Positions 4,562-54,600 of a DNA stretch of 64,000 bases are shown here, piece after piece. The notes beneath the pieces are model-generated. The model searched no databases. It was not told the DNA's origin and saw nothing but the letters and a program-made list of their open reading frames with translations. A program made the translations under genes and the position numbers. Position 1 is the first letter of the stretch, and every line of letters begins with the position of its first letter. Source of the stretch: Panorpa germanica (taxonomy: Eukaryota > Arthropoda > Insecta > Mecoptera > Panorpidae); contig OY783203.1 in NCBI GenBank assembly GCA_963678705.1, positions 21,000,535 to 21,064,534 of the forward strand, read 5' to 3'.

Positions 4562-5574
4562 TTATGAGGCAACTAGCACTGAAAATGAATGGCTGTTGAG
4601 GCAAATGAAGTATTTATAACTTGCGTTATAATTATTATAAAGCCTCAATGAGTAGGAGGGCCTGATCGGTGCAGCTAATGGCGATAGTAGCAATACGGTG
4701 GTATTCGTATACAGTCCACAAATGTTCCAACTAAAATAAATAAGCCGAGAAAAAATAGTCCCGTTTTAATAGTATTTAATTGTATAAATTATTTAAAAAA
4801 TAAGATAATATGAAAGACAAAGACGGCGGACATACCACACCACAGCACACCACGTATAATACGAGTTTAATGAAAGTACTGTTTATGCAGTAATTAATAA
4901 AGACAAGAGAAAGTCGGAAGTGTAACAGGCATTAGTCGCTAGGCACTAAGCGTGGAAAGTGCTAAGATTGTTCCATGTATAAATGAAGACAGTCCTATGA
5001 GGCATATTGTGTTAAAACGAATTTAACTTAATTGTGATATACTTGTACTATACTCTACCCTAAAAGTAGTAACCTACTACCACCACCCCTCTACCCCATT
5101 CCACTCCCACCGTCTCTGTCTCACATTCACTGTGTTGATGGTACTAATAAAAGGGCAGTCGTTACTCACTTAAAAAAGTCGTAAATTCATTCTTAAATAA
5201 ACTTGAATGTTTGCTAAAGATTCGTTGTTGTTTAACGCCTCGAGCCAAATTAATAAACAGACCCTGGTCGGCCGCGCAAAACTCTCACACCTTACGACGT
5301 TTTATTTATTTAAGGCGACAATCATTTTTTGAATAATTTTGTAAGATTCAGCCGCTATAGAGATATAGCTCTATCTAAAAAGTAGCTTGAATTATATTTC
5401 ACTTCTAAATTCTATAAAATTGTATTATATATGTATATTGATTAAGTTATCTTTCTGGAGTTTATTTGCGCAGTTAGTTGGTACTGCCAAACTCAATTGC
5501 GGTTTCAAAAATGTACTTAAATTTTGCGAATCCTATTACAATGCTAAATTCCATCACCGACAACTCCCTACTAT

Positions 5575-6328
5575 TATTGTTATTTTATTTTAATGTTTTT
5601 GCCATTTGGCTCTAAATTCTTGTGCCTTAACTCATTTATTTACATATCATTGTGCTTAATTCAATTTTGATTCTTATTATATATAAACATTCTCACTCCT
5701 TCCAAAAGAAGAAAAAAATTATTCTTATAAAAATAAAAACAAAACTGCTACTGCTTCGCCCCTCTTGCTACTTGCTCTCCTGTTGCTACTCTGCCATTCC
5801 TTCTCTTTCCTCGTTCCTTTTCTCTATCTCTGTCTTCCACCTTTTCCCTTTATTGTCTCCCCTTAATAAGTGCCCAATCTTCTTTTCGCTTATTACCTTT
5901 TTCTCACATGAAAATCTAATTTTTATATCTCCATTTCGAACATCCTGCACATCCTTTTCTCGCTATTTGCCCAGTATCTGTTACCTTTCTCCTCGTTTTC
6001 CAAACTGAATCTGGCAATCCTTCTCATGTTCTTTGTGTCTTATTCTCTTAAGTATTGTGGTATCTCTCTCTCCCAAATCTTTATATATCTTTCGTTATAA
6101 TTGCTGTTCTTAATTTTTTTCATTCTTTCCTGTTGTTGTCCACACTTGTGCCTTCTTCTCTTCTTCTCTCTGCCTCCTCTGTCGCCATTCCATTCCTTTC
6201 ATAATACTCCTTTCTCTTTTTCGGGCCTCCTCTCCCACCATCCTTTCTACTCTCCTCCCTAATATATCCTAGAATTTCGCCTTCAGCGTTACTCATTTTC
6301 TTCTCGAACTTGACTGCTGCTTGAACTT
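5575..6328 (-). mobile_element. 5'-truncated R1-like LINE fragment, copy 1
   Basis: The reverse strand matches the LINE fragment at 51453-52188: purine-rich coding remnant (GAAAGAATGAAAAAAATTAA, GGGAGAGAGAGATACC), then a 3' UTR with AAGCACAATGATATGTAA. The remnant resembles the C-terminal end of an R1-type ORF2, broken by stops and frameshifts. CCTACTAT occurs at 5567-5574 and 6329-6336 and may be a short target duplication. The 118-aa forward open frame at 5652-6008 is the antisense of this element. Confidence 0.65.
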
Positions 6329-8184
6329 CCTACTATGTGGGCAGTATTTATAGGGCGCCGCGGCTTCATATATGTGCACTACACCGCTACCTAATAAGTT
6401 TACGATTATGTCATATCAAACCAGAAAATATAATTCTGGTTTATTGGTCGAACCTGAAAACACAGCAGTCTAAGGTTCACGATTTTTACAATCAGCCAGA
6501 GTACATAGTTTTTTACGAATAATACGAAATTATCAAGTTTCACTATTCTAATTCATCTCTCTATAAGCGTCTATTCTGACTAACATAATACGAGTATATA
6601 CATTAGAAGTTGCAAGATTTTAAAATTTATACTAATATACCAAAATACCAAAATACCAGGACCTTGATCTACTTCGAATGCTTCATGTCATGTACACATA
6701 TAATCTTCAGGTTTAAATCATCATCTTTATTTAATAACATTTCAACTAAACTTATTTACTGAGTTTTCAATGTAAACGTGCAAAGTTATTCATTATACGA
6801 AATAACAGATTTTGCAGAACAAAAGGAGAAGTTTTTTAATGATTTAGGGAATTATATTATTCGCATATCGCATTATATTAACGGTAACTTTTACAGTTAA
6901 GAAGTACAATTGGTAAACTTTGTAGAGCATGTAGCGAGCGAGTAGCTCTCTTAGCTCTCTCAGCTCTATTACATCAACAGGCACACGGTGTACGGTGTAC
7001 AGGCATATAATAGCTGCTGGTTAGAGTACCGTACCAGTACCGGTACCGGTAAACCTCATACCGAAACCGGATCTAGATCAGACAATGACGATATCAGCAT
7101 ACAGCATACCAGATCCAGCTCGATATTTACAAATATTTCCTCACTGTTCATGCTCATACAACAGAACTTCTTCGTATTACACAAGCGTAACTTTGCTTCG
7201 TAATTACTGGAGCCTCTGTTCTAGATAGAATCTTTTTTATTCACGCGAATATGGTTCGGTATAACAGTGGATCTCTACGAAACCTTTATGCAATATCTCG
7301 TAAACTATAAATGATAGACAGATCATTTAAATAGAGTGGGTAGTACATATTTAAATGTACATTAGGAAATTATGAAGGAACACATTTTAATTAAATTCTC
7401 ACCGCTTTATTTTACTTTAGTCATGTATTTCTAGATATGTTTCATATTATTTAATAAGGTTTAGTATTGTAAAGGTAGGAAATGAGAACCGATTGATGTT
7501 CTTGTTCGGTACCTTGTGCTAAAATATTATTGATCATCTGAATGTATAGCGCCTATACATATGGCAACTACATTTACATTACACGGTTTTATCAAAATGC
7601 TAAAATATTCGTATTATTCAAAACATTTTTACAGTAGCCGAAAAAAGTATCATGTCTATAGTAATATTATAGTTAAAAGACTCAATATTTTCTTTAAGAT
7701 TGAGGTTATGTAAAATATAAAATCATATTTTTTTTAACTGTTATTCATATCTAGTTATGGTTTATTATAATGTATTCGTTTTGTATCTAGTAAAACGCCT
7801 TCTTAGTAAAATAGATATTTAATGTTTTCCTTATCACAAAAATAAATAAATGAGGTTAACAGTAATGGTAAACAAGATTTTCTATTAGCTGCAGCTTCAA
7901 CAGCAACTACACCTAGCGTAACACATGGCGACAGACTTTCTTGATAACGCTCGTTAGTGTAATCTCTTAACACCTCTTGTTTATGGAATGTTTGGATATC
8001 AGTTTAATCTAACCTTATTTTGTGGTTCTTAATAACGCTTAAACAAGACAACTGATTAGCCGGTTCACATGGACATGGTCACGTTCATGTTCATGTACAC
8101 ATGTTTGCAGACTTAACATAGTTAGGCGGATTGAATTACACATTTATGTGGTATTTTATTTAAGGGGTCGTGTACACCTGTGGT

Positions 8185-32548: not shown

Positions 32549-35500
32549 TTAAGGTTCCCATTCTTTCTCATCTACACCTTCCATAGAGTCTTGCTCTAAC
32601 TTCAGATTCATTTCCATACGGCTGCTCACTGCTCGTTGAATCTATTAAATTAAAATAAGCATTAAACAAGTAAAAAAAAAAGTCAAAATAAAATGAATCT
32701 TAACGAATATTTCTAAAAATTACTTCTTCTTGCTTTGATCGTGTTTGACCAGACATTTCCGCATTCCATCCAAGTCTGTTATGTGGTTGAGCAGCTCCAA
32801 CAAAAGTACCTCCAGAATTGCTTTTATTTATCTGAGATTTCTCAACAACTTTTGCCTGTCCTTGAGAAGTAGATACTACAACAAATAACAATAATGAAAT
32901 ATAAATACAGTTATTCTTCATTAGAAGAGGGGCAGCATATATTTTAAAATTATTACAGCAATCCATTCCAGCCGGTTGTAAACTTATTCTTTGAGCAGGT
33001 CTGTCGCTACCGTTAAACCAGTCGGTTGCCTGCATAGATGGCTGCCATGTCACACGGGTGAGAGGAAACAAATCATCTTGGAACAAGTCACTCTACAACA
33101 ACGGTTTATATATAAGAAGCATTATATATATATCATTATACATACCTTAACTTTATATATACCTTAATTCGAGGAACAGTAAACGATAAAGATTCAATAG
33201 CATTATTTGTTAGTCGATAGGCTTTAGCAAATTCAACAGCTGCTACGTCACAAATATTTTTTGGCAAAAATGACAGTCCTTGGTGTAAAGTAGAGCATCT
33301 GTGATGACTTAGAGGACACAAAAAGGGGGCCTCCTCTGTGACTTCAAATGCGTATATAGTAGAATCACCCTACAAAATTTATAAATTACATAAATTCAGA
33401 AAGAAGCCTTTTTAATTTAAATAGTAATAACAGATAAATTACAACGAAGATACTATTATAAATAAATAATCAGTATGCAAAAATATAAACGATAAAACAA
33501 TTAATTCGCCGCTATTGCTTTATTAAAAAAAAGCTATATGTTCATTAACGAAGTATAAAATGGTGATTTACTTTTCCAGTTAAAAACAAAGTGGAACTAT
33601 CTTCCTCGTAAAATGGAATAAGTATAGCCGGTGATACGTCAAGGCCCACTGTGTTCAAGGGTGTACTCAAATCGGATGCACGGAAGATCATAACTTGTCG
33701 TTCAGAAACCCTAAAAAGTAAAAATAAACATTAGTTTTAAAAATATTTTTTTATTGTAAAATTATTCGGATATATAATTCGGAAGTGCATACTTATCAAA
33801 GCCCATGATAACAAGATATCTGCCTTCAAGTGCCCACACGACTCGCGCTCCCCGAGATCCGACAGGTCCAGGTCCTTCCGAAATCGGATGTTCACTCTGT
33901 CGTGGTTTATAAACCTGTATATAAAAAATATAAAATGTACTAAAAAAATGAATATTGTTACCATAATATCGTTTTCATAATTTTTCCTTACCCTGATTTT
34001 GCTATCTTTGCTGACTGTTGCGCAAAATTGTCCACAGGGAGACCATGATAAACTGAACATCTGTTCCGTGTGTCCCTTTAGAGAAATGCATTCATTTAGT
34101 GTCTTTAAATTCCATATTTTTACACTCATGTCGTAAGAAGCAGTAGCCAACACGTCTTGAGCAAGTGGATGATACTTGATGAAATAAATTTTATCGGAAT
34201 GTGCATTTAATTCGTGTTGTGGCGTGTTCGTTGGCTCTGTAAGACCATCTGATGGAATATCCCACAATCGCACTATTCCATCATCACATGCAACAGCCAG
34301 TCGTTGATTGTTAAATGGATCCCATTGGAAATCCATAATGTTACTACCATGGACCAAAGCTGGAATGACTCCATCAGGCAATTTTCCTGTTCGCTTAAGT
34401 TCAAAAACAGCAATGCGGCCACCAGGCCCACTTAATGGTACTGCCACGCGTTCCGCATTTGCTATAATTACATAAATTACTACCAATAAATATGCAACTT
34501 AAATAATTTGTTTGTTGAATAACAATCATTGTACAATAAATATAATATTGATAAAAAAAATTTACTCGCCTTGAAATCCATCACATTCACCAGATATTTG
34601 TCGACTAATATTTCGGACATTTTCAATGTGTGTCGATTTATGTCCTGGCGTTCCTTTTAAATGTCTGAATTTGGACACACGCCCTGCAAAATATGTAAAT
34701 AAAATTTTTGTTTCTATTATTATTAATGATTAATTATTTAATTTACCAAATACTGTTGATGTTCGTTTCGGTGGCGCCACTTGAGGTGGAGGTGAAACAT
34801 CAACCGATTTCCTGGGGACCTGTGGATCGCAAGACAGTTGTCGAACCGGAGCTAAAGGTCGTTTTAAATCATCGTCTTTTGTTTCATCATTCTTTTTGTT
34901 TTTTAAAGAATCTCTTCGTCTAAGAGGAGTAGGAGATCCAGCTTTATCTACAGTAGCAGGACCATCTTGAACAGATTGAGAACGAGACTCGTACATACGA
35001 CGTCGTTCAGCTATACTATTTCTCTGTGCAGAAGATCTTTCAAAATTACCCAACTTATCATCGGTAAGTTCGAAAGCATCCTCGGGTTCTTCCTTTGATC
35101 CAGAGCGGCATTCAAACAACTTTCGTCTTTCCGCAGTACTTGGAGTTTTAGGTTTATAACCGGAGTCACTACTATTTGCATCTTCTTCTAAACTGGACGA
35201 GTCAGATTTACCGTTACCACAATCCTCTTCTCCTACGCAAAAACATAATATTTGGGTTATTAAATAACAAAACACGTGTAAATATGCAACTGAAATACCT
35301 ACTGAAAATTTAAAACAATTAAAATGTCTGAAGAGATTCAATAAATATCTTTTTGAAACAGAACAAATTACTTATTTTTTACTTTTTATTAAATTGCTTT
35401 AACTTTATGCCAAATGTTGAAAATGTTTGCCTGATCCGAAATTCCCCTAGCACTTTTCGAATTTATTGGTTTTAAAACTTTTTCTGTGTGTAAAAGTGTA

Positions 35501-38500
35501 ATAACTATACATACTATATTTCGACTTCTTTTGATACCATGGGCAAAAACTCTTTCAAAACTTATTTTTAGATTATTAAAAATTTAATTTGTTGTATTAT
35601 TTATATTGCACAAAGTGCATAAAATGTGGATTATAATTAGAATAAAAACTTACTTGATGCGTGTGTAGCTTCTACATCGCTCGTTGGAGATTTGTTTGTA
35701 TCACCAGATAAGTTTTTATCAGTGGTATCGTTTCCCGGTACTGCCGGAACTTGGAAAACTTTATCAAATGAAAATTCAGCACTATTACCAGAACTTGAAA
35801 ATGGCTTAGGACCAAGTCGAGGCTAAATAAAAAAAAAAAACAAAAATATATATATGTATCAAACCAATATTTTCAAACAGCAAATATTATTTGGACGCAA
35901 GGTCTCTCAGAGAAAGTATGAGGCCCAAACCAACTTATATTTTTGAGGTCTCTCTATATCGAAAACTGTATTTTATCCAGTTTTTGCTTTGGGACCCGAA
36001 GCTACAGTACAAATTGCCATCTCCCATTACTCACTGAGAGCCCCTGCTTTTATATAATTAATTTAAAAAACATCAGGGTGCAGAATATTGGAATATAGTG
36101 TTGTACTCTTTTTAGTACTAAGATCTACATACTCGTACTTGTGCTAATGATAAAAATTCATAAGACACATTTTAAAACACACAAGCATAAAACACAAAAT
36201 AAATAAATATATAACAACAAATTACAAACAAGCAAAATAATATGTACTAACAAAAAATTCTTAAAACAAAAATATTAAACTCAAGGACTAATTTTAGAGC
36301 TTCAAGATCACAGAGGCTTCTGTGGAACATGCATCACCTTGTAGCCAGTAGCAGCGGGTGTATTCGAGGTTCTAGGTCGAGCTACTGGTCTTGGAGGCTC
36401 ATCCATGCCTTCTGATATAGATCCAGTCCTCGATGCTCTTGGCAAAGGTTTCGGTGGTACAGTACCATTCTGAGTGCCATTTCTTGCATCATGGCTATCG
36501 ATAGCAATTGATTCCATTCTATCATCCAGTTTTTGCTGGTCTATATCTTTGAGTGTTTCTGTTAATGGAGTTTGTTCGACGACTGGTTTGGCCAAACTCG
36601 TAGGTTTAAATGTAATCGGAATTGAAGGTTTACTTATTGGAAGTACTTTGGTATTGGCTATGGCAATGTGTTCACAAATTTCTTGGAATGTTGCAGTGTG
36701 CACCTAGTTTTAACATATTTGTAAGGTCTCAGCACACATAATTTTTAAGAATTACGTTATAGTATATTATCTAAGTTATTCAGCATAAAAATTATGATAC
36801 CTGATTAATAGGATTACAATTTATATGCTAAGAGACGTTACTATTTGAGTGGCGATTTAGGGGTATGCTGCATTCACGTTTAAACTACAGAGATGTACCT
36901 AATTGCTTCATTTGCTCTAATTGGACGATCAATATTATATGTACGAGTATATTCGTTTTATTTAAGTAGTCATATTACTAGCGACTTCCTTTAATTGTGA
37001 TACTTTGTACGATACCGTGGCTTTAATTGCTTTATACATTTATTCTTTAATTATATTTTCTTTCAATATTGAAATTAAATAATGAAACTGATATAATATA
37101 TACTTCAAAAACTTTTATGCAGATTATGTTACAATCTATTTAGGTGCTACACCAAGTAATATTTACAATTTAAGAATATAATAAATATAAAATTTAATTT
37201 ATCACAGAAGTCCATTTCAGTTAGCGACATCTTTTAAAGAGTAGTGGTAAATATAACTATTATTGCGCCAAGACCAACTTTTTTCAATTATGGTACTTTG
37301 TACGATGTCGTGGCTTTATATTGCTTAATACATTTGACTATATATGAGAAGAAAAGAATACATTGAAATACTTTTAAATTAGGATTAGGATGCTTGTGTA
37401 CCAGCACATCTCCCTACATCTAGTCTACTCTTCAAATTTAAACTGTTCACACTGCAGCTTAGGAGATATGCTTGAACACAAGGTACAGCTGAATCGGTTT
37501 ATAACTTCATCCTGATGTTCATTGAGATGTTGCAGATTTCTATGTTAAACATGTTCAATGTTTTTATACATACGCTTATTTGTGGATTAACGAAGAGCCA
37601 CTCCCAAAACATTCACATTTTGTGTAAAACACATTATATTCGCCCTTGGCCTTGATGTATCAATTTAATTTTTACACAAAATTCATATTTTATTATGAAA
37701 TTTCTTAATATGAACACAAAATTATTGATCATTTCTGGAGTCTATTTTACCAATTGGCAGAATAAATATATTCCGGTCCTGTGAATTGTCCTGGCTCGCA
37801 TAGTTGAGTATCACAAATAATAAATAAACTATCTTGGTAGAAAATATAGCGGTGGTATAGAAATCGAGCCCGAAGACACAACTGACTATTCTCCCTCACA
37901 CACTGTACCGTAGACTAATATACTTGTCAGTTTAATATGATGTATAAAAAACGTATTTATACCTCTTAACTTATTTTCTGAAGCAATTCAACGAAGGAAA
38001 ATTATTATTGTAAAAAAACACTTACCACAATAGGTTGATCACAGTTTCCCCTTTTTGCAGGATCTAAACTGATTTTCGGCACTGGAGTATTTGCGCCTCC
38101 TTGCCACTGCTTAGGAGTTAAATTAGATACAGGCCCAGGAGTATCAGGATAAAGATCTGCGTGATAATCTCTATATGACTGTAACGTAATACAAAACATA
38201 TACAATTACACAAAATATTTGTATTATAAACAATATAAGATTTTGCAAATATTACCTTTCTGGGAACCTGGTACATTATCGGTATTACAGTCGATGACGT
38301 CAATTGCATAACGCGATTAACTTCTCCCTCCATAACTTTTAAAGCTCTTTTGGGTACTAGGCAAGCACCCTTTGTTTGTTCTCCAGAATGTCGTATACCC
38401 TCAATCAAATATGGTTCTCGATCAGTCACTTCCATGTATGATATTGTAGAGTCTCCTTTTCCTGCGAGGAAAAGCATGCCAGTGTCAGCATCGTATAATG

Positions 38501-39616
38501 GCATAAGGATTCCAGTGGAACAATCCAATTCTAAAGTCTTCTCCGGTTCATTAAATTTACGTAAATCACGTATCATTATTTGTCTCAAGCGAGCCGAATC
38601 AAACCCTAAAAGTCAATATATAACCATGTATAATAATATTTTAAGAGACACTCTGTTCTAATATAATCTAACAAGAAGTTGTACCAGTGGTCAATATCTT
38701 GTTGTTGTCTCCAAGCCACACTACTCTGGAGTCTTTAATACTTTGGTGGCTTGAGGCTGACATGGATATGCAGTTATCACTTCGAGGATCTACAATATGG
38801 ACCATTTTGTCTTTACACGATATTGACATGATACTTCCGTCTCGTTTCCAACTAACAGATTGAATAATATCACTAAAATCTGAGTTAGCTGCAAAAACAA
38901 ATAAAACATCAGTACAACCGCTTGAGAAACCTAATGACAGTAAATAATGAAATAACCACTCTTCTTACAGAACAGTTCTTCTTGTGCTGCGACATCCCAT
39001 ATTGTTAGAGTTGTGAAAGATGCGGAATGTAATAAACAATCAGCTGTCGGATGAAAGCCTACAGCTTCAACACGTCTTTGTTTATGTGAAAACGTACATT
39101 CTGGAGAACTGAGAGATTCAGTAAGCCCAGCTTCAGGAATATGCCAGATTTTCATCTGTAAATTATACAAAAAAAAATACAGTCTAACAACTCCTTGACG
39201 AGCTTATCATTGACGTTATAAAATATACGTACAAGACAATCTTGAGAACCTGTCACCAATAATCCATCATGAAATGGAGAAAAGTCCATGTCTGTAACAG
39301 TATCTGTGTGTGCATGCAACAATGGCATTGATTTACTTTTCCTGCCACAGTCAGTAATGGGAAGAACAGCAAGACTAGACCCTAACATGAATGACAGCAC
39401 ATTTTTAAATATTTATTTTTTAGACATTTCTTTTAAAAAATGCGTCAGTTAAATACCTGCATGATCCCAGTTAAAAGCCATGAAAGCGGCTGATGCTGCG
39501 ATGTTGTTGCCATAGGTTTGATATGAACCTACACAAATATCTCTAATACAGGATTCCGGTTTCGGTACAATTGGTGCAGCATTTTTGTATTTCGAAGCTT
39601 TAAATCTCCAGGCCAT
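32549..39616 (-). CDS. pod1: Coronin-7 family protein (Pod-1), two-propeller coronin
   Basis: Exons, 5' to 3' on the minus strand: 39616-39457, 39381-39233, 39155-38969, 38888-38685, 38605-38256, 38178-38026, [36703-36338 alternative], 35822-35654, 35232-34747, 34683-34570, 34461-33992, 33914-33793, 33710-33572, 33369-33163, 33092-32957, 32875-32724 and 32641-32549. Without the alternative exon they give 1096 aa, starting MAWRFKASKYKNAAP. Residues 1 to about 390 form the first coronin WD propeller (MKIWHIPEAG, LTIWDV). A Ser/Pro/charged linker with two ERR-K/M-F/Y repeats follows, then a second propeller (IVRLWDIP, SVKIWNLK), and a short acidic tail ending EGVDEKEWEP, typical of coronin 7. 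The family acts on actin and microtubules at growing axons (fly Pod-1) and in Golgi export (vertebrate CORO7). Oddities: one GC-AG intron (34569-34462) and an 81-nt intron that stays open if retained. Confidence 0.95.
36308..36703 (-). CDS. pod1: Alternative exon of pod1 with its own stop codon
   Basis: An acceptor at 36704 leads into an open frame in phase 0 with the exon ending at 38026. It reads VHTATFQEICEHIAIANTK and so on for 131 residues, rich in Pro/Arg towards the end (PPKPLPRASRTGS, PPRPVARPRT), and stops at TGA 36308-36310. Two readings are possible. An internal donor AAG|GTGATG at 36338/36337 would join it in frame to the exon at 35822, giving GYK-PRLGPKPF and a protein of about 1218 aa. 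Or reading through to the stop would give a 532-aa protein with only the first propeller. The conserved-looking coding character is clear; the splicing choice is not. Confidence 0.7.
   Translation of the reverse strand: MHTATFQEICEHIAIANTKVLPISKPSIPITFKPTSLAKPVVEQTPLTETLKDIDQQKLDDRMESIAIDSHDARNGTQNGTVPPKPLPRASRTGSISEGMDEPPRPVARPRTSNTPAATGYKVMHVPQKPL
36991..37336. repeat. Two diverged direct repeats in pod1 intron
   Basis: The blocks at 36991-37041 and 37282-37336 share GTACTTTGTACGAT-like sequence, then CGTGGCTTTA and TACATTT, about 290 bp apart in the same orientation. Probably an old tandem duplication or two old repeat copies. Confidence 0.45.
38257..39456 (-). other. First-propeller exon block of pod1 (short introns)
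   Basis: The introns between the first five coding exons are all about 75-80 bases (39456-39382, 39232-39156, 38968-38889, 38684-38606), close to the minimal intron size of insects. This contrasts with the long intron that surrounds the alternative exon at 36.3-36.7 kb. No transposon lies in these introns. Confidence 0.7.
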
Positions 39617-48693: not shown

Positions 48694-51600
48694 TCACGTC
48701 AGATACGCAACGAAGTTCCTCTCTGGTGCGTCACAAATATTAAACACCAGTGCCCATAAAGTAACAAACAAATTTAAAATAAGAAGTGATTTTGAAGAAC
48801 AAGTTGGAGATACGGAGTTAACTTCAGGTGATACAACTTCAACTTCCGCCATTTTGAAAATTGATAGCAACAAATGGGAACTTAATTCAAAATTTTGGGA
48901 GTTCACTTTTTCGCTAATGTCCTGAAGAAGATGGGAGCATTGAGCCTGTAATGAGATTATTTATTATACATTTTGTTCATTTAATTATTTGCATATTTAT
49001 ACATTAGAATAATTTGTCACCTTTTCTCTATCTAAAACCATTTTGGGGGAAGCAGTGGAGTCATCGGGTACTCTTCCCACGAGGATGACGTTTTCATTCG
49101 TTACGTTGAAAAGCACCAAGCTGCAGGATGTCTGAAAATCAAGTAAAAACTCATAAATATCAGAAGAACTGGAAAATCATTAAATACAAGTATCACAGAT
49201 TTAGATTTTCTCACGTCATTATCAATGTGCTGGCGGACAAACTCTTGAAGAGATCTGACAGCATCAAGAACACTTAGATTAGTGTGTGGTCGAAGAAGAG
49301 CTTCGTCAGTTGAACTGTATCCCAGGAAGAGGAACACTCCTCGAGGAAGGGAGTATTCACCTGCTTGTTGAAAATAGTATTAATAGTGACTGGACAAATT
49401 GATTATGATGAGATCAGATTCTGAAGTGTCTACCTGGCAGAGGTCGCATGCAGATGAATCTACCAGAGTAACAAACACAGCGGCCGCGGTAGGCCTGGTA
49501 GGCGGGAGCTGAGTGACTATAAAATGCAAAGTCTGTCCGACAGGGGACTCGTTCTACGCACAGCGTATGGCAAGAAAGGGACTCCCCTAGTCCGCAATGG
49601 CAGAGCTCGGAGCATTCCGGTTCATCCTCGCGGTACAGCTGCAACCAAAGATCACATTAGGTATCTGCCTAAATTACTAATGGGCCTTTTAGACGATTAA
49701 ATCAGATCTTCAATTTTTTTCAGATTCAGATGAACTTGGCGGATCTGAACCTGAACGTATGGACCATTCTGTAGCGCTTCTGAACCCGACCCGACCCGAC
49801 CCAGACCCAAACTCGGGTAGAAAACCCGACGGATCCAGGCCCGAATGCTTTTGCTGCTGTAAAACCGCTCGAGTTAAACAGCCCAAAAATTTAAAATATT
49901 TGTTCAACATTTATTTCTATACCAATATGTATATTTAACATGATAGTACCGTCACTAAGCAAATAAATCATAAAGTTTAGTAAAGGATTAGTATAAAGTA
50001 TTATATATTAAAAAGGATAGTTCTATTATGATGTCGAGAGGGGCACCAGACACAAGACCAATAACAAGAAAAAACTAACAGGATGAAAGTAATTTAAGTA
50101 GCTATTTAAATTAAAAGAAATTCATAAGTTTCAAATAAGCACTTCATTGAGTTTTCCCAATGAGTTGGAAACTTGCATAAATAGCGAACATGTTATTTCT
50201 ATCATCCGAATTGATTGTAAGTATAGGTCTACTAAACAGGACCTTAAAAGTTTAGCTACGCAGCTAATAAGTAGACTTTTCGCGGATTTGACAGTCAATT
50301 CTACAGAAAACTTAGATATGTTGTTAGTAGATAACAATGAAAAGATATTATCAATGGAAGAGTTAAATTTAATTTAACAAAACCGGTAAAACCAAACAAT
50401 TCGGTAAAACCTGTTGTGAGTGCTGTTATAGAGGCTGAGGATTTTGCAAAATTGAAGCAGGAGCTTACCCTTTTTAGGAATAAAAAATAAAGAACGCTTA
50501 ATCCAGATAAGCTTTATGACGCGCTATGCACGATCAAACCAACTTCGACGGGTAATGAAAGAACATTCTGCAAATTTTTGGCTCCAAATTTAGATCGTCA
50601 TTGGGAGATAAGTTTCTAAATGCTTTGGTATTCCTTAAATATCATTATATTAGATCTAGTAAAATGAAATAAGTTGTAAAATTATAATGTAATTACTTAA
50701 ATAATACGACCCGGATCCGTCGAGTTTTAAAAATATTGGACCCGGCGGGTATTAAAACCCCGGCAGATTTGGCAGATTTAAAATCGAATCGTCTAAGGGG
50801 CCTTTTAAAACAATGATTTTGAAGAATGCAGGATTACTTACTCGTTTGCTTTTCCCTTCTCGAATGTACTGATCCGACTGATAGGGTCTTTGAACTACGC
50901 AGAATCCTGTTGGATAAAATAATTAGTGATCTACCAATATCTAACACTAGTAGCAGATAGTTAAACTAATGGTAACTCTTTAATAACGATAACAATAATC
51001 TATTGTGACAGAAACGTGATCTCATATTTTTTATATTTGTCGAAGTCGAGGTATAATTTCTTAGGTAAACATTTCTTAGCTTATGTTGTAATAGCATAAG
51101 TAAGTACAAATATTTGTACAAGTGTTGCGCTTACTTGGTGGAATCGTCGTCGTGGTCGTAGTGGGGGTGGTGACTTCAACTGTCGTCGTCACAGTGGTGG
51201 TTGTAGCTTTAGGATATGCTTCAAATCCTTTAATTACTCCAAACCCTCCCAATTCAATCTTATGTTCAGGAGGGGGTGGAGTTGGCGGTAATTTCTCAGT
51301 ACGTTGTTTTACCTAAATCATTAAAATAAAATATGACAATATAAAAAAAAGATAAAAAAAACGCAAATTCTGTAACACACGGACAGTAACACATGGAAAA
51401 AAACGGCGGAACTCTTGCCGCGCAAATATTTATTATCATCTGATATTTACCGGCAATCAAATTAGAGGAGAAAATGAGAAATGCTGAAGGCGAGATCCTG
51501 AGGAAAATAAGGGAGAAGGTTAGAGAAGAGGGTGGAAAGGGAGGAGCAAAAAAGAGGTAGGAATATTTTGAAAGGAACGGAATGGCGACAGAGGAGGCAG

Positions 51601-54600
51601 AGAGAAGAAGAGAAAAAACACAAATGTGAGCTAAGGAGCAGAGACAGAGAGATTCAACAGCAGGAGAGAATGGAAAAAATATACAATAGCAAATACAATG
51701 AAAGATACAAGAGGATTTGGGAGAGAGAGAGAGAGATACCGGAATACATACGAAAAAAAGACACAAGGAACATAAGAAGAGAAGATTTAGATTGGGAAAC
51801 GAATAGAAAGGCAGCAGATACTGGTAAAATAGAGAGGAAAAGGATGTGCAGGGCGTGAGGGAGAGAAGTGAAAAGAAGATTGTGCAGCTATTAAAAGGAG
51901 GCAGTGAAAGAACGAGGAAAGAGAAAGAATAATAGAGTAGAAACAGGTGGGAGAGTAGCAGGAAGAGGAAAGCAGTAGGAGTTTAAATTTATCTGTCTTG
52001 TTTGTATTTTTATTTTGTCTTTTGGAAGGAGTGATATTGAGTAGATAGAATAAGGATCATAGAATGTAATTAAGCACAATGATATGTAATTTAGTTATTT
52101 AAGGCGAAAGAATGCAGTGCCTAATGGCACTGAAAAACATTAAAAACAACAAAAAAAAACATTAAAAATAAATAATATAATAATAAATATCTGATATTTA
52201 CCGATTCCTCCGTCAATGTCATCGGAGTCGCATGTAGCGGAGTCAGTTCTGGAAGAGTCACGGGAATTATTGGTGGCACAGTTGATGTTGTCGTCATTTT
52301 AGCAGCTTGTTCTTCTAATCTTCTAATATGAAAATCTTTCTGGGATTCAACTATAATTCGATATTTAGTATATTAAAAAGGGTTCAAGGGTAAATTGTTG
52401 AAGAGGGATTTAGTTTTTGCTTACCAACGCAAGGATTCACCCATAAAAGTCTTTGCCACCCTAAACAGTCATAAAGCTGAGATAAATCTGTCCCTTTACA
52501 TGCACAAGATGATCTTAACTCAGTTCCTAAAATACCCAACATGGCCGCTCGACATTCAGAAGGTGGCCCGGCACATTTTTTGGTCACACTGTCAACAGCG
52601 CAGGACTGCTCGTAAAACTCTAAACGCCCCCTGTGATCAAATCGAAATTTATTGATAGTTTTAATCGTTACGGATAAATACCGTAATCGTGTAGACGATT
52701 TGTGTATGGACGATGGACGAGTACCTCAACTTGAGGTAGCACACAATCAGCATAACCACTTACTTGCATTCTTTGTCTTCACGACAATACTCGGCAAGGG
52801 AATGACAGGTGGGCACTGGAAGGGCTGCGGAGCCAGTAGAGGACTCCTGGCGTTGAGCACATACCGGGTGCAGTTTCTCTTGTGCGATCATACAAGCGTC
52901 TTGCTTGTTTTCAGTTTTCCTTCAAAATGTTTTCATATATTATAACACTTTTTGAAGTTAATAATCTTTAATATTTAACATTTTAAAGGTATGCGAGGCC
53001 TTTGTATGTTTTAATTATTTTAACTGGTAAATATTGTCAAAAAAATTATTACTTGTCAATAACATTTATCAATTGTATTTTCGATACCACGAGTATATTC
53101 AAAAAAACCGTGAGTTGTGTACGAAGACTTAATCGAACGTACAGTCCCGGATTTGGGGGAGGGCAGGCGGGGTTACTGCCCCGGGGCTTCCACAAGAGAG
53201 GGCTCCCCACAATAGAGATAAATACTATACATTTTTGAAAGACTTGACGTAAAAAAATTGTTCCTTTTATTCGGAAAATAATTAGGGGCCTCCGCTTCTT
53301 CGTTGCCCCAGGGCCCCCACACCTCTAAATCCGGCACTGCGGGCGTAAACCATGTATCTATTAGATCATGTAAAGTTACACTGTAAAAAAAAATTCGTTA
53401 GACGCATTTTTCTTAGGTGAAGGCTGCACTGCGAAAAAGATTAGCGCTAAAATAATAATAATAAAAATATAAAAATTAATTTCCGTGCGACTTTTAAATC
53501 AGCAGAGTGCGTGTACATTTATATGTTTTTATATGATTGCATTCTTAGTCTAATGCCGGTTTTACACTAGAGAGACAAATCAACAAAACACGAACAAAAA
53601 CTGTTTTTCTGAACAAAAACACCAATGTTTTGTAAAAACTGAACAGTTCTTAAAACATTTTTGTCTTTAAAAACTGTTTTAGTAAACAAAACACATTCCC
53701 ACATGGAGTCATTTTTCGTCACTTGGTTTGAACACGCACTTTTGTTCTTTGTGAACATTTGCGCTTGTCAGTTGTTTATCATTTGGCTCATTTGGTTCAA
53801 CCATATTTTGGAATATGGTATTTTTCTTAGCGATTTTAGGTCCTACCAAAATAATTAACAGTTCAAAATCAGTACTTGACATTCTTGTAAAGTTGTGAGA
53901 GGAGGATCTTAATGCTTCATTTAACCCAATGTCGTCAGTACTTAAAACATGCATAATTCTTCTGTGCCATAATGAACTCTCCTTTTCAATAGAGAACTGA
54001 CCCAATATCTTCGTTTTTTTCTAATTGGTATCATTATATAGTCGAACATTTTTATGGACACACAGAAAAACACTAGAAACAAAACCAGTCCATTCAATGT
54101 GAACAGTCTGCCTTCGAAAAACAGAACTATTTTAAAATAAAAGAAAACATGTTTTTGTTTTGTTTTTTGAAAACAAAACTGTTTTCGAAACTGTCTCTTT
54201 GGTGTAAAACCGGTATAAGAAAGAGATTTCTAAAGAATTTCTTCGACCAATGTCTTTACAGTGTAGTCATTATTTCGACCTCAGTTTAATTTAAAGACTT
54301 ATTCACAGTTATTCTACATTTTAACCAAAATTAATATTTGTATATATATTAAACCTACTTGCACAAACAAAATGCAATTTCCAAGCTCCAACTTAAGTCA
54401 GGAGTCCTGTAGAAAGCTTGCAGAGCCTCCATACATGCATTTCTACTGCATCGAGTCATATCACAGTTGAGTAATACTGGTTGCAGCGCAGTACGGCAGG
54501 TGCCATTGTTGTTGCAGCTGTTCAAGGCGGTGTGGCACGTACTCTGAAAGGTTTCCTTCCATAATTGCAATTTTCTTACAATTATACTGGGGTAAAAGGT

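Follow-up and report, generated by a model that had tools for sequence, protein, structure and literature searches.

Intronic copies of long interspersed nuclear elements (LINEs) are ordinarily 5'-truncated: they arise by target-primed insertion, end in an A-rich tail, are flanked by a duplication of the target, and begin at variable 5' positions. Here we describe one such copy within a stretch of 64,000 nucleotides from the scorpionfly Panorpa germanica (assembly GCA_963678705.1, contig OY783203.1, positions 21,000,535 to 21,064,534, forward strand; "the window"). It differs from ordinary intronic copies because it straddles a splice donor, that of exon 5 of a GDNF receptor-like gene (Gfrl), so that its target-site duplication holds a complete second donor. 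The closest published analogue we found is canine merle, in which, as outlined in two reports, an antisense SINEC_Cf element lies at the intron 10/exon 11 boundary of PMEL (SILV), with a 15-bp duplication at the splice site; its antisense poly(A) provides a pyrimidine tract and a cryptic acceptor (PMC7349775, PMC6091007). The merle insertion sits at an acceptor, causes in-frame exonization and a phenotype, and is assumed in these accounts to be older than dog breeds (PMC7349775, PMC6091007). Introners also recruit splice sites from target-site duplications, as described in outline, but they create introns by inserting into exons, some families having short duplications and terminal inverted repeats (PMC9860276).

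The Gfrl locus resembles merle in that an antisense retrotransposon at an intron-exon boundary carries a splice site in its 15-bp duplication. Unlike merle, the duplicated site is a donor, the LINE end is decayed, modelled exonization breaks the reading frame, and the case is known from sequence alone. Unlike an Introner, the LINE enlarged an existing intron. We read the locus as an old antisense LINE insertion into that intron, which made a duplicate donor and left the upstream donor as the one that Gfrl needs; we put the probability of this reading as a whole at about 0.8. The locus is a natural example of a target-site duplication that copies a functional splice site, leaving one intron with two equally strong donors ~750 nt apart. 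What is at stake is donor choice: of two identical donors, one lies beside its exon and the other at the ancestral distance from the acceptor. No LINE duplication carrying a splice donor was described in the titles and abstract openings covered by our literature search. With a donor in place of an acceptor and an insect LINE as its carrier, the present case adds a new example to a known kind, duplication that copies a splice site, and is a fairly ordinary event.

A LINE between two copies of the Gfrl exon-5 donor

The window contains the 15-mer ATCTGATATTTACCG at exactly two places, 51438-51452 and 52189-52203 (plus-strand coordinates). Allowing up to two mismatches still yields these two matches, compared to 0.28 expected from shuffles, and two or more occurrences were seen in 2 of 100 shuffles. 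Identity spans exactly 15 bp, the adjacent base being unlike on either side. On the minus strand, which is that of Gfrl, both copies read CG/GTAAATATCAGAT (a slash marks a splice boundary or its copy); the upstream copy is the exon-5 donor and the downstream one a decoy. The exon-5 boundary reads GGAATCG/GTAAATATCAGAT and continues into the antisense LINE, while the far end of the LINE reads GATTGCCG/GTAAATATCAGAT and continues into the remainder of intron 5. In plus-strand terms, the left copy lies within intron 5, and the right copy adjoins both exon 5 and the LINE 3' tail. These results confirm the initial annotation in two respects: identical 15-bp copies flank the LINE, as their 15/15 match at both element ends establishes, and they read as the exon-5/intron-5 boundary on the Gfrl strand, as borne out by sequence and reading frame.

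It is hardly conceivable that the two copies match by chance or through another type of duplication unconnected with the insertion. The region is AT-rich, and flanks of other LINE copies share exact words of up to 11 bp, but here 15 exact bases of mixed composition sit precisely at both borders of the element, a placement that contradicts a chance origin; in addition, when the insert's 5' flank was paired with the 3' flanks of other copies, none of the 39 pairings reached 15 bp.

The insert itself (51453-52188; 736 nt) is a LINE 3' end lying on the plus strand, antisense to Gfrl: it comprises the remnant of an open reading frame (ORF) C terminus, a 3' untranslated region, and an A-rich tail abutting the right-hand copy. 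We searched the 464-Mb genome for its family and scored the best 40 of 6224 first-look candidates, the insert among them; the copies used for comparison were the other 39 scored places plus one more inside the window. The insert belongs to a dispersed repeat with at least 49 genomic matches, one of which is the insert itself. The copies have the 3' part in common and share an A-rich 3' end, and their 5' start points differ. At a single locus, L010, an ORF ending ~155 nt upstream of the insert-homologous part matches the reverse transcriptase domain RVT_1 (E = 2.6e-17). The duplication, the A-rich 3' end, the 5' truncation, and the reverse transcriptase of this longer member identify the insert as a copy of a non-long-terminal-repeat retrotransposon, or LINE. 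The R1-like label given by the initial annotation is not confirmed: of 71 candidates, 13 matched the reverse transcriptase fragment, none of them informatively named.

Other copies have perfect duplications of their own, with sequences unlike that of the insert: 15 bp at L012 and 14 bp at L011, the latter determined in a wider search. When 40 copies (39 loci plus the insert) were examined for exactly repeated flanks, 15 bp was reached solely by the insert and L012; apart from L011, the other tested copies reached at most 11 bp, mostly with no clear duplication. The second family copy in the window (5588-6317, minus strand) is 68% identical to the insert and has a likely 13-bp duplication with one differing base. 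Two copies, L027 and L030, have very short terminal branches (0.010 and 0.032) in the family tree; both end at insert position 414, and their best flank words are identical in sequence and offset. Rather than two young insertions, they may be a single segment that was duplicated. Upstream of the LINE at L010, locus positions 5536-7677 (minus strand) hold transposase-like ORF pieces, putatively of hAT type.

A query joined from the window exons found 59 homologous proteins among 2814 candidates, the best with an E value of 7.6e-127 and 56% identity over 100% of the query. The first four were all from insects, with 53-56% identity and query coverage of 100% in three and 98% in the fourth. Together with the GDNF/GAS1 domain (PF02351; E = 1.2e-7) found by domain search in exon 4, these insect homologues along the full length mark the gene as GDNF receptor-like. 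All exons discussed here lie on the minus strand. Exon 4 (52425-52630) is followed by a donor GT at 52424; its extent is supported by homologues, and its acceptor end was judged by eye. Exon 5 (52202-52350; 149 nt) is entered in phase 1 and left in phase 0, and joins in frame to exons 4 and 6, the three sharing one frame: exon 5 ends with TLTEES, and exon 6 begins with VKQRTEKLPP. Exon 6 (51135-51312) encodes a Thr-rich linker and is placed by its frame, a Thr-rich match to homologues, an acceptor AG at 51314-51313, and the next GT at 51134. From these joins, intron 5 (51313-52201) is computed to be 889 nt long, or 138 nt once the insert and a single copy of the duplication are subtracted.

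We aligned 15 of the 59 homologues to the query. Conservation extends over the GDNF domains and the residues that open exon 5 (VESQKDFH), but the exon 5/exon 6 junction falls in a Thr/Pro-rich linker too variable to confirm where exon 5 ends. The exact position of this end is instead suggested by the reading frame, by stops that follow soon after, and by the lack of any other GT in exon 5 above our donor threshold. In Drosophila Gfrl, the threonine stretches contain predicted O-glycosylation sites, and the protein is attached by a glycosylphosphatidylinositol (GPI) anchor (PMC3527400).

Insertion mechanism and survival of the donor

The 5'-truncated LINE copy probably entered a preexisting 138-nt intron 5, in antisense orientation, by target-primed reverse transcription. 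Because the LINE runs along the plus strand with its tail at the right-hand copy, the first nick would have been on the bottom strand (the sense strand of Gfrl); given the known mechanism and the positions of the copies, it would have fallen between intron positions +13 and +14, and the second, on the top strand, 2 bp within exon 5. Fill-in of the resulting 15-bp stagger would have kept the ancestral donor on its exon and put the duplicate on the far intron side of the LINE.

Target-primed insertion onto the donor, leaving a working and a decoy copy as the initial annotation proposed, is supported; its further claim, that the gene survived only because the duplication was long enough to copy the whole donor, reverses the argument and does not hold. 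Each flank, together with the target copy adjoining it, is always unbroken ancestral sequence. The donor survived because the insertion point lay at intron +13, and any duplication length would have done as long as that point was beyond about +6. What the length of the duplication accounts for is the decoy: 15 bp carry two exon bases and the whole donor, so the second copy is complete.

Could the LINE have created intron 5 rather than entered it, as in intron gain by Introners? One splice site does lie within the target duplication, as described for some Introners (PMC9860276). Against this, the 138 nt that remain once the insert and a single copy are subtracted have a T-rich tract, an acceptor, and three adjacent in-frame stops and so were already an intron; the intron-5 acceptor, moreover, lies outside the element. 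We rejected intron gain, which is highly improbable here: an intron is present even without the insert.

The preferred reading, insertion into an existing intron, does not call for a rare coincidence. A genome of 464 Mb may have some 50,000 to 150,000 donors. Given that range, a random 15-bp duplication covers eight donor bases in 0.09-0.26% of insertions; multiplied by the 6224 first-look candidates, which are not all necessarily true copies, this yields ~5-16 donor-covering events before selection. One surviving donor-covering case is thus not unusual.

Age of the insertion

The initial annotation took the perfect duplications to suggest a recent insertion. Compared to its family, the element does not look young. 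In a 41-tip tree of family copies, its terminal branch is 0.105 (median, 0.120), and its base is not that of the family majority at 69 of the 714 positions compared: 14/159, 11/160, and 19/159 at codon positions 1, 2, and 3, and 25/236 in noncoding sequence. It differs at 43 of 582 conserved sites, 14 of them with a base absent from every other copy, and at 38 of the 537 positions at which L012, its neighbour in the tree, has the majority base. Of the seven indels in the ORF remnant, six break the frame. No other copy shares the exact boundaries of any of these six, and for two of them the other copies hold no comparable indel. Among the best 40 of 6224 candidates, the closest copies are 77% identical over 671 query positions and 84% identical over 310. 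Because of this divergence and the frame-broken remnant, we consider the insertion probably old.

The duplication itself decides little. The chance that a 15-bp duplication is still perfect is 3.6-8.7% at a divergence of 0.105, 8.2-16% at 0.08, and 40-51% at 0.03, where each range spans the assumptions from both copies being neutral to one donor being constrained. Change since insertion lies between a floor of about 2.4% (the 14 of 582 sites) and a ceiling of 10.5%; a perfect duplication accords well with the floor and poorly with the ceiling. A short duplication that is perfect is therefore a weak sign that an insertion is recent; the claim of recency is not borne out by the 77% identity of the closest scored copies, the branch of 0.105, or the broken ORF, and the duplication leaves age open.

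Several observations weigh against our reading. A perfect duplication is improbable at the upper age estimate, as given above, and L012, the nearest copy in the tree, likewise has one. Third codon positions differ more (19/159, versus 25/319 at first and second positions), so part of the divergence may predate the insertion. At the sites of the 49- and 31-nt gaps, 22 of 37 and 24 of 36 copies spanning the site, respectively, are gapped as well, so that both gaps may be inherited or reflect alignment effects. A closer sibling could have been missed, since the best 40 of 6224 candidates were scored. Outside the question of age, the end of exon 5 falls within a linker whose sequence is not conserved among the aligned homologues, and a search of the 464-Mb assembly with window 52189-52850 for an empty-site copy or second haplotype found none: the sole match was the window itself. 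That the flank with exons 4 and 5 is single copy, on the other hand, counts in favour of our reading.

Some of these observations would suit an insertion that is recent and perhaps polymorphic, with the divergence of the element inherited from a divergent, unsampled source lineage. The identity of the duplication at 15/15 positions, the equally perfect one at L012, the third-position excess, the small number of conserved sites (14/582) with a base seen in no other copy, and the extent of family sampling all point that way. However, the six frame-breaking indels, none with a boundary match and two with no similar one elsewhere, argue against it, as do the differences at first and second codon positions (25/319) and in noncoding sequence (25/236), the lack among the scored copies of a sibling above 77% identity across most of the length, and the failure to find an empty-site contig in the assembly. 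On balance, we consider a recent insertion unlikely and an old one the better account.

Possible use of the second donor, and other features of the window

The working donor, TCG/GTAAAT (52196-52203, minus strand; intron start at 52201), and the decoy, CCG/GTAAAT (51445-51452, minus strand; would-be intron start at 51450), are equally strong: as TCG/GTAAATAT and CCG/GTAAATAT, they match U1 at 8/11 and 9/11 positions, respectively, with an equal duplex energy of −5.5 kcal/mol. We examined 69 GTs in 51060-52640, listing as donors those with a 7/11 U1 match or −6 kcal/mol, and found no other above this threshold in exon 5. Normal Gfrl requires splicing from 52202 to 51312 across the 889-nt intron; when splicing from the decoy at 51450 is modelled, every product is truncated. 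The reading frame is intact and conserved, which suggests that the upstream donor is mostly used.

The decoy might nonetheless be used in part, with a cryptic LINE acceptor to form a poison exon, or as the end of an extended exon 5, lowering or truncating Gfrl. Its U1 match slightly exceeds that of the true donor at equal energy, and it keeps the ancestral 138-nt distance to the exon-6 acceptor, which might give it an advantage where short introns are preferred in splicing. The antisense LINE also offers acceptor-like CAGs preceded by tracts of 75-90% pyrimidine, with exon starts at 52129, 51820, and 51497. Predicted cryptic acceptors include 52130-52131 (minus strand), where the antisense LINE tail provides a T-rich tract followed by CAG (cassette to the decoy, 679 nt), and 51498-51499 (minus strand), with a 90% pyrimidine tract (cassette, 47 nt). 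But every modelled product has a premature stop, which would make decoy use costly, and we consider partial use quite unlikely. We tested 10 AGs between 52152 and the decoy, and none gave a frame open through exon 6, which rules out a productive cassette exon for these sites; an exon 5 extended through the LINE toward the decoy meets a stop after 26 extra codons.

Those 26 codons would encode a strongly hydrophobic tail (mean hydropathy over 19 residues, 2.26), compared to four residues if the empty intron were read. This tail, derived from the A-tail of the antisense LINE, is the basis for a model in which the insertion supplied an exonization kit in one step: LINE acceptors plus the duplicated donor would yield a truncated Gfrl that keeps the GDNF domains and loses the GPI-anchored C terminus, and that is either secreted or held by the hydrophobic 26-residue tail. 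In Drosophila, a Gfrl mutant protein without the predicted GPI anchor is reported to be secreted (PMC3527400). We regard the model as very unlikely.

Two other observations concern this intron and its neighbouring exon. The exon-6 acceptor directly precedes GTAAAACA (TAG/GTAAAACA, 51305-51314, minus strand; U1 match, 6/11; energy, −6.7), so a donor-like sequence is formed anew when exons 5 and 6 are joined, resembling a recursive splice site. In another frame, a stop-free stretch of 228 codons (51296-51982, minus strand) runs from the antisense LINE through the decoy donor into exon 6; it encodes many hydrophobic residues and reflects the purine-rich sense strand.

Elsewhere in the window, an Rfam scan at gathering thresholds gave no matches. 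Positions 33737-39412 (minus strand) contain WD40-repeat exons, with WD40 matches for 33737-34498; these presumably belong to a coronin-type gene.

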